Assembly (NCBI GenBank): GCA_020348065.1
Contig: CP070742.1
Coordinates: forward strand, 2,858,824-2,896,380
DNA length: 37,557 nt
Reading direction: 5' to 3'
DNA from: Candidatus Zixiibacteriota bacterium
Lineage (GTDB): Bacteria > Zixibacteria > MSB-5A5 > UBA10806
In this document: one piece after another, positions 25,879 to 33,418 of the stretch
Position numbering within the stretch: the stretch's first letter is position 1
How the letters are laid out: every line of letters starts with the position of its first letter
Made by a program: the position numbers and the translations under genes
The notes under the pieces: generated by a model
The model's database searches: none
Told to the model about the DNA's origin: nothing
Seen by the model: only the letters and a program-made list of their open reading frames with translations

Positions 25879-27627
25879 ATGAGTGATAAAAACAAATCCG
25901 CATTGGGCGTTTTAAAGCCCTACCTTTTACGATATAGGAAACTCTGGATCGCGGGAATTTTCGCGGTGGCGTCTACAAATATATTTATGCTCGCGGGACC
26001 ATGGATTTTACGGTTAGCGATTAACGATCTTGAAAAAGACGTTACGGCGAGGAGACTGGCCGCATACGCTGCCGCAATTGTACTCGTTACCCTGATCTCC
26101 GCGGCCTTCAGATTTATGATGAGACAAACCATGATCGTAGCGTCGCGCAAAGTCGAATACGATTTCCGCAACGATTTTTTCGCGCATATATTGACCCTGG
26201 ATCGGCAGTATTATGACAAAACTCCCACCGGCGATATTATGGCGAGAGCATCCAACGATATGGATTCGGTGCGTGCCATGATCGGGCCCGGTATAATGTA
26301 TTTCTGCTCCACGGCCGTAGCGCTGGTTCTGGCCATATCATTAATGGTAAAGATAAGCCTGAATCTGACCCTTCTGGCATTGATTCCGATGCCGGTTATT
26401 ACAGTCCTGGTCTTTTTTCTGGGACGAGAGGTCAACAAGAGGTATGCGAAAATCCAGAAACAATACAGCGATATCACCGCCCGTGCACAGGAAAGCTTTT
26501 CGGGCGTACGGGTGGTAAAAGCCTATGTCCGGGAAGACTACGAAATCGAAGATTTCGGATCGCTCAGCATGGAATATGTCCGGAAAAATATGTCCATGGT
26601 TCGAGTATGGGGTTTCTTTTTTCCCGCCATTGTTCTGTTCAGCGGCGTGGCGCTAATCATGGTACTCTGGTTCGGAGGCAAGGCCGTCATCGAGGGGACC
26701 ATAAACCTCGGCGATTTTGTCGCCTTCTCGGCCTATCTTCTGCTTCTCATATGGCCCATGGCAGCCCTGGGATGGGTTGTGGGATTATACCAGCGAGGAA
26801 AAGCGTCACTGGGCCGGATTAATCAGATCCTCGATGAAAAGCCGGCAGTAGCAAATACCGCCGGAGCGATAAACAGGGAGATCGAGGGGAAAATAGAATT
26901 CAGGAATTTACGGTTCGGATATGGACGGGACGTGGTCTTAAATGATATTAATATATTTATAGAGCCGGGCACCAGAGTCGCGTTGATAGGCGATACCGGA
27001 AGCGGAAAAACCACCCTCGTCTCGCTTCTCATGCGGGCATATCCAGTGGAACGAGGCATGATTTTCATAGACGATATTGATATAAACGATTACGACCTGA
27101 AATGTCTCCGCTCACAAATCGTCCCGGTTATGCAGGAGACGTTTCTTTTCTCAGATACCATCAAGCAGAATATCGCCTACGGCCGGCCCGATGTTGAGAT
27201 GGAATCCGTCAGGCAGTTCGCGCTGACCGCGGGCATCGCCGCAGAAATCGATGAATTCCCCGGGGAATACGAGACTATTCTCGGTGAACGCGGCATCACT
27301 CTCTCCGGAGGCCAGAAACAGCGAACCGCCCTGGCCAGAGCCTTGTCATCCGATCCGAGAATATTGATACTGGACGACGCATTCTCATCCGTGGATACTC
27401 GCACCGAGGAGGAAATACTTACCAATTTGCGGCAGATACTCTCCGGAAGAACGACCATAACGATTTCCCACAGAATATCGACGGTTAAAGACTCGGACAT
27501 CATACTTGTTCTTAAAGACGGTGTTGTTGTGGAAAAGGGACGTCACGCGGAATTGATAACCGCCGGGGGGCATTACGCGAGACTCTATGAAAGACAGCTT
27601 TTAGAGGACGAACTGGAAACGCTTTGA
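25879..27627 (+). CDS. ABC exporter, fused permease and ATPase (MsbA/MdlB type)
   Basis: The 582-residue half-transporter has a type IV exporter membrane domain with six segments (about 18-320) and a C-terminal ATPase. The ATPase shows Walker A GDTGSGKTT near 372, Q-loop VMQETFLF, signature LSGGQKQR near 475, Walker B ILILDDAFSSVD and the switch histidine ISHRIST. It should work as a homodimer, or with a partner half-transporter, to export lipids, peptides or drugs; the cargo is not visible. It is the first gene after a 76-bp gap with its own promoter, whose -10 abuts the ATG. Its stop overlaps the TTG of the Nudix gene (TTGA). Confidence 0.95.
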   Translation: MSDKNKSALGVLKPYLLRYRKLWIAGIFAVASTNIFMLAGPWILRLAINDLEKDVTARRLAAYAAAIVLVTLISAAFRFMMRQTMIVASRKVEYDFRNDFFAHILTLDRQYYDKTPTGDIMARASNDMDSVRAMIGPGIMYFCSTAVALVLAISLMVKISLNLTLLALIPMPVITVLVFFLGREVNKRYAKIQKQYSDITARAQESFSGVRVVKAYVREDYEIEDFGSLSMEYVRKNMSMVRVWGFFFPAIVLFSGVALIMVLWFGGKAVIEGTINLGDFVAFSAYLLLLIWPMAALGWVVGLYQRGKASLGRINQILDEKPAVANTAGAINREIEGKIEFRNLRFGYGRDVVLNDINIFIEPGTRVALIGDTGSGKTTLVSLLMRAYPVERGMIFIDDIDINDYDLKCLRSQIVPVMQETFLFSDTIKQNIAYGRPDVEMESVRQFALTAGIAAEIDEFPGEYETILGERGITLSGGQKQRTALARALSSDPRILILDDAFSSVDTRTEEEILTNLRQILSGRTTITISHRISTVKDSDIILVLKDGVVVEKGRHAELITAGGHYARLYERQLLEDELETL

Positions 27628-28175
27628 GTTTTCTGGCGCAGCAAATACCGTTGATGGAGAGTTTATTCGGATATCCTGACGAGCTCGCCTTCGTTCAACC
27701 GGTTACTGCCGACGAATATAAACGAATCGCCGGAAGCATGAAAAACCGTCGCGCCCACGATCTAACCCTGTATATAAAAAAAGATGACGGTTATATCTTC
27801 ATCGCCAAGCATTTCTATCCGCCGGGATTATACAGAGCGCCTTCAGGCGCGGCCAGACCGGGCGAGGACTTTAAGGACGGCGCCCTGAGAGAGGCGAGAG
27901 AGGAAACCGGTGTGGAAATAGAGCTTGTTAAATATATCATGAGAATCAATGTGAGGTTCGAAAATGAAGCCGACCGTATCGACTGGACCTCGCATATATT
28001 CCTCGCCAATTATATAAGTGGGGATATTGAGCCGCAGGACAAACGAGAGATCAAAGAAGCCCGATTGATATTTCCCGATGAAATCCCCGGATTTGCGGAA
28101 AAAATGAGAGAAACCAAAATCGGGGGGCTGAACTATAGAGCTTTCCTCACCGTAGAGGTGGGGAAGAGATTATAA
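27624..28175 (+). CDS. Nudix hydrolase
   Basis: The 183 residues carry a complete Nudix box, GAARPGEDFKDGALREAREETGVEIE, near residues 75-98, fitting Gx5Ex7REUxEExGU. Around it is a beta/alpha Nudix fold (TLYIKKDDGYIFIAKHFYPPGLYRAPSG, IDWTSHIFLANYISG). The protein should hydrolyse a nucleoside diphosphate linked to another moiety; which one cannot be told. The start is TTG 27624 overlapping the ABC stop, or ATG 27654, which would remove ten residues. It is co-transcribed with the exporter and converges on the Cys-rich gene 13 bp away. Confidence 0.92.
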   Translation: MSFLAQQIPLMESLFGYPDELAFVQPVTADEYKRIAGSMKNRRAHDLTLYIKKDDGYIFIAKHFYPPGLYRAPSGAARPGEDFKDGALREAREETGVEIELVKYIMRINVRFENEADRIDWTSHIFLANYISGDIEPQDKREIKEARLIFPDEIPGFAEKMRETKIGGLNYRAFLTVEVGKRL

Positions 28176-28188
28176 TCTTAAAACTAAT

Positions 28189-29070
28189 CTAAAATCTTAT
28201 CTTTCTTTTCTCCGCCCGAATGATCTCTTCTATTCGGGCGGGGCAGTTATCTGAATCCGATATCCCCCTCAGACAGTAAAACCGCCTGTAATGAGAGATC
28301 TCCTTTCTGGAGCGATCCTCGATATCTATCAACGAACAATAACTGCAGTCTTCACACTTTTCAATCGAGCCGACGATTATTTTCCCCGTTGCCCGGGCAA
28401 CCTGGGCGCGGGATATATTTATGCATTCTTTGCCGCCGTTTTTAGTCATCTCTATCTTTTTGGGATTTCTCAATATTATCCGGCCCCGATCCTCGGTAAA
28501 TATAGCGTCGAATTCCAGGTCGTCGCCTGGCGTCGCTTCCGTACGACACAAAAACCTTCCGTTGACTCTCAGGTAAATTTTGTCGTCGAAAAGGTTGTTA
28601 TCGAAATAACCGCTATCGAACGATATATAAAAGCCGTCCATATAAACCCGGCCTTGCCCGTTATCAATAGCCATTTTCAAATGAGGGAATACCGAAGCGA
28701 CAGTCCCGCCGAAGCGAACGTTTTTCCCCCGCATGCTGTCAAGCCATCCCCGGTATTCCAGAAGATCGTCCATAAATCTCTTTAGTGATTTGCCGTCCAG
28801 GTCGGTTTCGGGTCTGTAAGTCATTTTCTCGTCATAAAATTTTTTACAGGAGAAACATCCCCTGCCAACATGCTTGAAATTTTTCGGGCATTTTTTGCCT
28901 TTATCCAGATCATGGCATTTCCATAAAAACTCCACACAACCCTCAGGATAACAGCCTTTTTCTACAATTACATGATAAGGAGAGATCTCGTATTGGAATT
29001 GCCTGTGGGCAGGGTGGCGGCACTTGAAAAGCCCCTTTTGTTTTAAGAGATTTCTGATTTTTTTCAACAT
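28189..29070 (-). CDS. Unassigned cysteine-rich protein with two metal-site-like Cys clusters
   Basis: The 293-residue protein falls into three parts. The N-terminal part holds seven cysteines (17, 40, 45, 52, 61, 72, 75), including RGCFSCKKF. A helical link (LKRFMDDLLEYRGWLDSM) leads to a beta-rich middle (about 115-215: KNVRFGGTVASV, GRVYMDGFYISF, KIYLRVNGRFLC, GDDLEFDAIFTEDRGRIIL) that looks like an OB-fold-type barrel. The C-terminal part has C239-x2-C242-x2-C245, then C266 and C276 (EKCEDCSYCSLIDI, RFYCLRGI, DNCP). The spacing suggests zinc ribbons or an Fe-S cluster, and a nucleic-acid role is possible. I recognise no family. It is a single gene, convergent with the Nudix gene; its 3' end contains a 10-bp perfect hairpin (28212-28241) without a T-run. 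Confidence 0.8.
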   Translation of the reverse strand: MLKKIRNLLKQKGLFKCRHPAHRQFQYEISPYHVIVEKGCYPEGCVEFLWKCHDLDKGKKCPKNFKHVGRGCFSCKKFYDEKMTYRPETDLDGKSLKRFMDDLLEYRGWLDSMRGKNVRFGGTVASVFPHLKMAIDNGQGRVYMDGFYISFDSGYFDNNLFDDKIYLRVNGRFLCRTEATPGDDLEFDAIFTEDRGRIILRNPKKIEMTKNGGKECINISRAQVARATGKIIVGSIEKCEDCSYCSLIDIEDRSRKEISHYRRFYCLRGISDSDNCPARIEEIIRAEKRKIRF

Positions 29071-29307
29071 GATATTTAATTATAAATTGCCTGAGGCTAT
29101 TTGCAAAGACCGATTTTACATATAGATGCGCAAATTGCTGCACACCCATATTGATATTTTCCGCTTTTTCGGAGTTTTATTGCAAATCTTATTTGTTTAT
29201 CTATTGGAATTTAATAAGTTAGGGGCCTGTAAAAGAGGAGAGATGACGCGGTTAATTTTGCTTGATCGGCATATAAATTGCCTTATATTTCGGTGGAGTA
29301 ATATCTT

Positions 29308-30564
29308 ATGGTTGTTAAAGTCTTGAAAAGCGCTGTTTTTATAATCACAATTCTGAATATATTTTATTCGCCCTGCGCCGCGCAATGGGGATTGTATTTG
29401 AAGGGTTCATTGGTAACTGCTGGTCGGCCGCACGATCTGGTCGTCTCCGGTGATTACGCCTACCTGGGCGATTGGACCGCCGGTTTTACCGTTCTCAATA
29501 TAGGTGACCCGCGCTGGCCTCAACAGATTTATAATTATAATACGGACGGACTGGCCAATTCCGTTTTTCTGCATGACACCCTGGCGCTGGTGGCCGATTG
29601 GGGCCAGGGAGTTGCAATTTTCGATATTACCAATCCCGCTGCACCGTCATTTTTATCCGCATGGAATACGCCGGGGGCGGCATATAATGTTTACGCTATG
29701 GGGACCTACGCTTATATCGCCGATTTTAACGGCGGTCTTATCGTGGTTGATATCTCCGACCCGACTTTTCCCCAATACGTAACCACCCTTCAGCTCCCCG
29801 GCCTCGCCACCGGAGTCTGCGGATCAGCCAATTACATATACGCCGTCTCGTATCCGCAGGGGATAGAGACCTATGATATCTCCGAACCGGCATCTCCCGT
29901 ACACCTGAATTCATACATATCTCAGGGGCCGGCTATCAATGCGAGCGTATCGGGTAACCTGCTTTTTCTCTGTGAGGCTGATGCCGGCGTAACGGTTTTA
30001 TCCATAAATGATCCTTCAAATCCCGTACAAATGTCGATTATAAATACGCCGGTTTATGCCAATGACGCCGCCGGGGTGGATACTATCTTGTATGTGGCGG
30101 ACGATTCAGCCGGCGTTATAGCATATTCCGTAAACAATCCCCAGAATCCTTATGAACTTACAAGCTACGATAGCCCCGGGGTCGCCATGGGGATTTTCGC
30201 CTCGGACACGATCGTCTATCTCGGCGACAATAGTTCGTTTATTATCCTGATTCATACCGATACTCCCACTGGAATAGAGGAATTGGAAATTGGCTCCCCC
30301 GAATTTTTTATGATCGAATCAGTATATCCAAACCCGTTTAATCCCGAAGCTGTCATAAAGTTTAATATGGATAGGACAGCGGTGTTCTCTCTGGATGTTT
30401 ATGACATCGGCGGCCGGCTGGTGGAAAATCTCTTGAAAAAAACTCTGAACCCCGGCACATTCGAGATTACCTGGGATGGCAAAAATTGTCCCTCAGGGGT
30501 ATACCTATTCAGGCTTGCGGCCGACGGCCGTTACGCAGTCAAGAAAGCCACTCTCCTTAAATAA
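29308..30564 (+). CDS. Secreted LVIVD-repeat beta-propeller protein with a C-terminal sorting domain
   Basis: A signal peptide (VLKSAVFIITILNIFYSPCAA) precedes about six repeats of roughly 42 residues with the LVIVD pattern, for example AYLGDWTAGFTVLNIGDPRWPQ, AYIADFNGGLIVVDISDPTFPQ and LFLCEADAGVTVLSINDPSNPV. These fold as a beta propeller. The last 80 or so residues start with SVYPNPFNPEAVIKF and end with GVYLFRLAADGRYAVKKATLLK, a type A T9SS-like/FlgD-Ig sorting domain that directs secretion or surface attachment. The substrate or partner is unknown. ATG 29308 follows GGTGGAG. It stands alone: 237 bp upstream (from a divergent gene) and 204 bp downstream contain no gene that I can see. Confidence 0.9.
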   Translation: MVVKVLKSAVFIITILNIFYSPCAAQWGLYLKGSLVTAGRPHDLVVSGDYAYLGDWTAGFTVLNIGDPRWPQQIYNYNTDGLANSVFLHDTLALVADWGQGVAIFDITNPAAPSFLSAWNTPGAAYNVYAMGTYAYIADFNGGLIVVDISDPTFPQYVTTLQLPGLATGVCGSANYIYAVSYPQGIETYDISEPASPVHLNSYISQGPAINASVSGNLLFLCEADAGVTVLSINDPSNPVQMSIINTPVYANDAAGVDTILYVADDSAGVIAYSVNNPQNPYELTSYDSPGVAMGIFASDTIVYLGDNSSFIILIHTDTPTGIEELEIGSPEFFMIESVYPNPFNPEAVIKFNMDRTAVFSLDVYDIGGRLVENLLKKTLNPGTFEITWDGKNCPSGVYLFRLAADGRYAVKKATLLK

Positions 30565-32029: not shown

Positions 32030-33418
32030 ATGATCATAGACAGGATAAGAAATATACATAGTCTCGTCAGGTGTTGTAACGACGGGAACGGCAATCCTCT
32101 ACGGAAAATCATGTTCGCCGCCAGAAATATCAGGCGATTCCAGACGGCATTGAGATTCCTGAGAGAATCTCAATGGCGTTCTGCTGAATGGCATGAGGAA
32201 TATCAAAGGAAAAATTTACAGAGGCTCCTGATATTCTCGGCTGAGAAGGTACCCTTTTATAGAGACTTTACGGGAGGTCGTGGGGTAGACCCGAAAAAAA
32301 CCGGCCCTTTCGACGGTCTGAAGAATTTTCCCATAATCAAAGAAACCGACCTGCGATCGGATTTCAGCAGGTTCGTATCCGACCGCAGCGGAAACGACGA
32401 TTTTCTTTATATGGCTTTGAGCAAAAAATACAGCGATAAATTTTATCTGCCCGTAGACACCGAAACATTTATAAGAGATAAGGCTCTGGTAGCGCGTCAT
32501 TATGAAAACGCGGGCTACAGTATCGGTTCCCCGGTTCTTTGTTTTGTAAACCAGATCGATGGATGTGAAGGCGAGAAATTCAGATTCGACAAAGTTCGCA
32601 ACAGGTATTATTTTTCCTCAAATGAATTGAATGAGAGAAACCTGGCCGATTACTGCAAAAAAATCAAGGATTCAAATGCCGGCTTTATATTCGGGTATCC
32701 CGGTTCCCTGGAAACTTTTGTCGATTATGTTCTTGAATGGGAGATAGACTTAAAATTCCAGGGGGTAATAACGAGCGGCGAAGTCCTTACCGATATCGCG
32801 CGAACAAAAATAGAGAATGCGTTTAACGCCAAAGTTTACGATCTTTATCATTATTCATTTCCGATTCTCGGGATGGGACAATGTCACTATTGCGAAGGGT
32901 ATCATCTGTTTTCCGAATATTGCGTTCTCGAACTCGTTGATTTCAACGGAGATCAAATCAGGGAAAAAGGAAAAGTGGGCAGACTTGTAGCAACGAATAT
33001 ATCAAATCGCGCCCTGCCCATAATCCGCTTCGATACCGGCGACCTCGGAGTCTATGATGGAAGCGAATGTGATTGCGGACGGGGATTACCCAAAATCGTC
33101 AGAAAAATAGCGGGAGCGCAAAAGGAAATGCTGATAAGCGCGGACGGCGGGTATCTTCCTCCCGGCGCTGTAGGGGTGATCCTGAGCGAGGCCGGTTTTT
33201 CGGACACGAGTTATCAATTGATCCAGGAAAAAAGAAAAAAATTCAAACTGAAACTTGTGCGCGGCCCGGAATATAGATCGGACAATCTCGAGAGAATCAA
33301 AGGAGATTTACGGGAAAGACTGGGTCGCGGTTCCGATATAACTGTTGAACCGGTAAAAATGATTGACGATGACGGGGGAAAAGCCAGATCGATAGTGAGG
33401 GAATATGAACCGCAATAA
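32030..33418 (+). CDS. PaaK/CapK-like adenylate-forming-enzyme homologue lacking the nucleotide loop
   Basis: The 462 residues follow the phenylacetate-CoA ligase/CapK layout: the N-terminal helix pair ending LLIFSAEKVPFYRDF, GVITSGEVLTDIARTKIENAF, the hinge motif IIRFDTGDLG (332-341) and CDCGRGLPKIVRKIAG with its two cysteines. Two substrate-binding parts are missing. The glycine-rich SSGTTGxP loop near residue 130 reads ALSKKYSDKFYLPVD, and the adenine-site YGxxE is replaced by DLYHYSFPI. Family members activate aryl or fatty acids as acyl-adenylates, and CapK-type relatives lie in polysaccharide loci. With the loop gone this protein probably does not make adenylates in the usual way. It overlaps the next gene by 14 bp. 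Confidence 0.82.
   Translation: MIIDRIRNIHSLVRCCNDGNGNPLRKIMFAARNIRRFQTALRFLRESQWRSAEWHEEYQRKNLQRLLIFSAEKVPFYRDFTGGRGVDPKKTGPFDGLKNFPIIKETDLRSDFSRFVSDRSGNDDFLYMALSKKYSDKFYLPVDTETFIRDKALVARHYENAGYSIGSPVLCFVNQIDGCEGEKFRFDKVRNRYYFSSNELNERNLADYCKKIKDSNAGFIFGYPGSLETFVDYVLEWEIDLKFQGVITSGEVLTDIARTKIENAFNAKVYDLYHYSFPILGMGQCHYCEGYHLFSEYCVLELVDFNGDQIREKGKVGRLVATNISNRALPIIRFDTGDLGVYDGSECDCGRGLPKIVRKIAGAQKEMLISADGGYLPPGAVGVILSEAGFSDTSYQLIQEKRKKFKLKLVRGPEYRSDNLERIKGDLRERLGRGSDITVEPVKMIDDDGGKARSIVREYEPQ

Follow-up and report, generated by a model that had tools for sequence, protein, structure and literature searches.

The window, i.e. the whole stretch of DNA that was analysed (37,557 nucleotides of a Candidatus Zixiibacteriota chromosome), carries on its reverse strand the gene of a small cysteine-rich protein (the family gene, Table 1). 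This open reading frame is a real gene, and strong purifying selection was found by comparison with its nearest relative, L031, on the Candidatus Zixiibacteriota chromosome CP070813.1 (dN 0.077, dS 1.07, dN/dS ~0.07). An antisense ORF (28291-28785) was rejected as a gene and is a chance by-product, because its counterpart in L031 is broken by four stops. The family gene and the NUDIX hydrolase gene converge across a gap of 13 bp, whereas the LVIVD-repeat gene on the other side (29308-30564, + strand) is divergent and lies 237 bp away; the original prediction, in which the gene was convergent with its neighbours, held for the former and failed for the latter. Among the Zixibacteria loci examined, 10 have a NUDIX relative close to the family gene (neighbour clusters, the window's own locus included). 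No RNA families were found around the family gene. Elsewhere in the window, the LVIVD-repeat protein has a Por_Secre_tail sorting domain, suggesting that the genome encodes a type IX secretion-like system, and a 462-aa ORF (32030-33418, + strand), flanked by aminotransferase and glycosyltransferase genes, was without any Pfam match.

Table 1. Features of the family gene, its protein modules and its flanks (positions are those of the window).
Feature	Position	Strand	Remarks
NUDIX hydrolase gene	27624..28175	+	Convergent; Pfam PF00293; outside the family
Family gene	28189..29070	-	ATG start, 293 aa; ORF list; one match in its genome (G000)
C-terminal Cys4 module, residues 226-283	28222..28395	-	C239xxC242...C266...C276, plus D249 and R262; alignment
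Beta-rich middle, ~residues 115-214	28429..28728	-	Conserved P129, G146, D163, G182, G196, R197; alignment
Acidic helix-like linker, ~residues 89-114	28729..28806	-	Conserved F99, W109; alignment
N-terminal basic module, residues 4-88	28807..29061	-	C17, H22, C40, C45, C52, C61, C72, C75; net charge +10
Promoter-like site, TTTGCA-17-TATAAT	29079..29107	-	Upstream of the family start codon; consensus match only

Conservation was assessed in an alignment of 76 full-length homologues from three phyla. The seven cysteines that had been pointed out within the first 75 residues (17, 40, 45, 52, 61, 72 and 75) were invariant in 76/76 homologues, as was H22, and the same was observed for C239, C242, C266 and C276 (76/76) at the C-terminal end. 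These four cysteines bore out the C-terminal pattern originally read as CxxCxxC...C...C, but its third cysteine did not: C245 is replaced by Gly in 93% of the homologues, and the conserved motif is therefore CxxC-x23-C-x9-C. Poor cysteine conservation had been named in advance as one of two outcomes that would overturn the prediction; it did not occur, and eleven cysteines were perfectly conserved in all 76 sequences. In the same alignment the middle cysteines C175 and C216 were not conserved and H19, H33 and H67 were variable; further invariant or near-invariant positions were N7, K10, F15, G44, W50, P129, D163, G196, R197, D249 and R262.

The complete conserved ligand sets, seven Cys and one His at the N end and four Cys at the C end, are of the kind present in zinc-finger and treble-clef families. 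Because the ligands are invariant, the protein very probably binds metal at both ends. Two metal sites had been proposed; metal binding at both ends is supported by the cysteine invariance, but the ligand count favours three sites. The simplest reading would be three four-ligand sites, two N-terminal and one C-terminal, because the eight N-end ligands occur in four pairs and are complemented by four ligands at the C end.

The modules differ in charge: the N module carries a positive net charge in nearly the whole family (median +10, interquartile range 9 to 12), the beta region was mildly basic (~+4), the C module was at ~+1 and the helix before the barrel was acidic (median -6). A helix at residues 93-113 of the linker region appeared in low-confidence AlphaFold models. 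No signal or membrane segment was apparent in the protein by inspection.

No significant match was obtained in Pfam or the PDB for the single protein, for the full alignment or for each of the three module alignments, and none in NCBIfam or PHROGs with full proteins as queries. A full-length match to a known domain family, the other outcome that would have overturned the prediction, was thus not found over any part of the protein in these four collections. For the N and C modules, curated zinc-domain profiles gave no significant Pfam or PDB match, the best ones being at chance level (e.g. zf_Tbcl, E=0.047 in one member). Weak N-module matches in other clades (frames of ~320 aa) were rejected as relatives: by inspection, they belong to a branched-chain-aminotransferase-like family.

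When the alignment was read by eye, residues 115-214 displayed the alternation, the Gly-Asp turn and the final strand typical of OB barrels. Profile comparison of this middle with the tRNA_anti OB domains of the same genome gave a weak score of 17.2 (shuffled 95th percentile 15.9, maximum 22.6), in a comparison of little power in either direction, since a known OB pair, RecO against tRNA_anti, also failed. In this non-significant match with the tRNA_anti-codon OB domains (PF01336), the first strand and the Gly-Asp turn were aligned in the expected strand register; the family protein differs from those proteins by being without an attached catalytic synthetase or nuclease domain. AlphaFold models were of low confidence (pLDDT 35 with one sequence, 37 with two sequences). 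The OB fold is a closed barrel of five strands, in which a helix separates strands 3 and 4; an OB-like barrel is a plausible fold for the middle, as judged from its strand and Gly-Asp pattern and from the register of the weak profile match.

Several known proteins join OB folds to zinc modules. Nmd3, the ribosome export adaptor of archaea and eukaryotes, binds zinc through cysteine pairs in its N-terminal module, and the OB-like domain that comes next sits on an RNA ligand; by description it is set apart from the family by its CxxC pairs and further domains, and no Nmd3 homology was found in family or PDB searches. RecO, a small cytosolic protein, has both an OB barrel and a zinc site of the Cys4 type. 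An OB-like barrel and a Cys4 site are ingredients shared by RecO (PF11967/PF02565) and the family, which might accordingly be a replacement or a divergent form of this recombination mediator. The OB domain of RecO is documented (PMC8881015), and in the RPA/MCM type, zinc modules are joined to DNA-contacting OB folds (PMC8881015). The domain order differs: RecO has an N-terminal OB domain and one Cys4 site, whereas in the family the barrel-like part is preceded by the eight-ligand N module and followed by the Cys4 site. No N-terminal OB domain of the RecO type was found, the barrel-like part of the family beginning near residue 115 in the alignment. In addition, RecO_N is present in the window's genome and in most carriers, and profile similarity was absent (hhalign probability ~1% or less for the whole protein and for each module). 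The RecO explanation was rejected on this co-occurrence in the same genomes and on the absent profile similarity, and we regard it as highly improbable. In the RPA/MCM type the barrel itself contains the zinc module as an insertion, while the metal modules of the family flank the middle on either side, and profile searches of the PDB found no relation between the two.

By protein search, the family was detected in 34 of 58 related genomes, and a profile search of 132 Zixibacteria genomes found 37 carriers. Nearly every carrier genome has one copy, and in one Zixibacteria carrier the gene is split over two contigs. Within the 11 carrying taxonomic families of Zixibacteria, the gene was retained by 37/40 genomes; the same profile search found it absent from the other Zixibacteria families, many nearly complete genomes among them. 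Carriers outside Zixibacteria were first exposed by a domain-wide sample and then by profile searches within the phyla concerned: three further phyla carry the family in 14/40, 49/82 and 2/6 genomes, which brings the carriers to 102 genomes in four phyla. A second domain-wide sample revealed a damaged copy in an additional lineage (L196, G517 contig 96), which is either a decayed gene or an assembly error and was left out of the counts because of its frameshift and in-frame stops. No viral or plasmid copies were found. A tree of the 76 full-length sequences separated the phyla almost cleanly: two sequences were misplaced, and one split had weak support (0.53). This result agrees with descent that was mainly vertical, transfers being few. 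The conservation pattern is far beyond chance, because it combines carriage in these four phyla with the dN and dS values measured against L031.

Gene neighbourhoods vary. In Zixibacteria the neighbours include NUDIX, short membrane protein, murA, dnaG and epimerase genes. On its own strand the family gene precedes dnaG in family f16 and murA in family f5. Outside Zixibacteria, one phylum has proS as the next gene downstream, in the same orientation, in 20/29 loci, with gaps of 12-231 bp (except for one locus where the start call overlaps) and with differing genes upstream (PTS genes, or signal peptidase and HemW-like genes). This adjacency hints at a link to translation; as a general functional link, proS was rejected, since ProRS-C_1 synthetases were absent from 37/37 Zixibacteria carriers. 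The context had been said to give no hint of function, which is nearly true in the window's genome, but the proS, dnaG and murA adjacencies provide a modest hint in other lineages. Two further sets of genes were also noted around the family: two small conserved genes without an assigned function, arranged as a divergent pair (~74 and ~107 aa; L062 7734-7958 and 7406-7726, - strand), are repeatedly next to the family gene in several families of Zixibacteria, and a conserved protein of ~160 aa with CxxC pairs (L062 6530-7027, - strand, and relatives) is encoded nearby in 9 Zixibacteria loci.

These neighbourhoods bear on the idea that the protein is a scaffold that binds a protein or a small ligand (an assembly factor, a metal store or a chaperone), with a barrel that would not bind nucleic acid. 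The free switching of neighbours from lineage to lineage and the lack of matches to nucleic-acid families agree with such a role, and the acidic helix could be a protein interface. However, the N module is very basic and highly conserved, and none of the neighbouring genes is a constant companion from phylum to phylum, which a dedicated assembly factor might have. We consider the scaffold unlikely.

The occurrence of COX1 (haem-copper oxidase) was compared between carriers (17/37, window's genome included) and non-carriers (60/95, p=0.08), and carriage had no clear association with the aerobic/anaerobic split among these 37 and 95 genomes. Carriers with and without the oxidase fit an oxygen-indifferent metal such as zinc. 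Alternatively, [4Fe-4S] clusters could be held by the C-terminal CxxC...C...C, by the N-terminal cysteines or by both, in a protein that senses redox or iron or carries electrons and whose barrel binds a partner or nucleic acid. The invariant set at the C end is all-cysteine, the N end is cysteine-rich and 20/37 carriers showed no COX1, all of which would suit an Fe-S protein; against it, the N-end set is mixed Cys/His with an invariant H22, and COX1 is present in the remaining carriers. Furthermore, no ferredoxin or other Fe-S domain family was matched in Pfam or NCBIfam and recurrent redox partners were not found in the neighbourhoods, so that an Fe-S protein appears rather unlikely to us.

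The best explanation is that the family is a cytosolic, metal-stabilised (probably zinc) nucleic-acid-binding protein of housekeeping type, perhaps acting on RNA or tRNA; we put this forward as possible rather than probable, and prefer it because of the invariant ligands, the basic N module, the single copy, the cytosolic character and the housekeeping neighbours. The N module would supply a basic surface and take its fold from two bound metal ions, in all likelihood zinc, with C17/H22, C40/C45, C52/C61 and C72/C75 as the putative ligand pairs. The helix would lead into the predicted OB-like beta-barrel, which would hold a single strand or RNA, and the C-terminal module would bind a third metal via its four cysteines. 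Support for nucleic-acid binding is only indirect and comes from the conserved positive charge of the N module and from the housekeeping gene neighbours. Also counted in favour of the nucleic-acid reading were the invariance of the ligands while other cysteines vary, the ligand count of exactly 8+4, the strong purifying selection, the retention in 37/40 genomes, the proS, dnaG and murA adjacencies and the weak tRNA_anti match. Counted against it were the absence of significant matches among OB, zinc-ribbon and nucleic-acid-binding families, an OB score within the shuffled range, the low AlphaFold pLDDT and the failure of the proS link in Zixibacteria. It is doubtful that the family goes as far as founding a new class of bacterial metalloproteins that bind nucleic acid, have three metal sites and belong to the core machinery of translation or replication in these mostly uncultivated phyla, possibly with Fe-S clusters for redox sensing.

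The family is new to protein-family databases, strongly conserved and single-copy in at least four bacterial phyla. A single-copy protein that is kept by nearly every member of many lineages, with twelve invariant ligands and no family entry, is an annotation gap and well worth structural study. Should it bind RNA or DNA, these bacteria, of which hardly any model is in culture, would have in it a core factor of their own for translation or replication, specific to their lineages.
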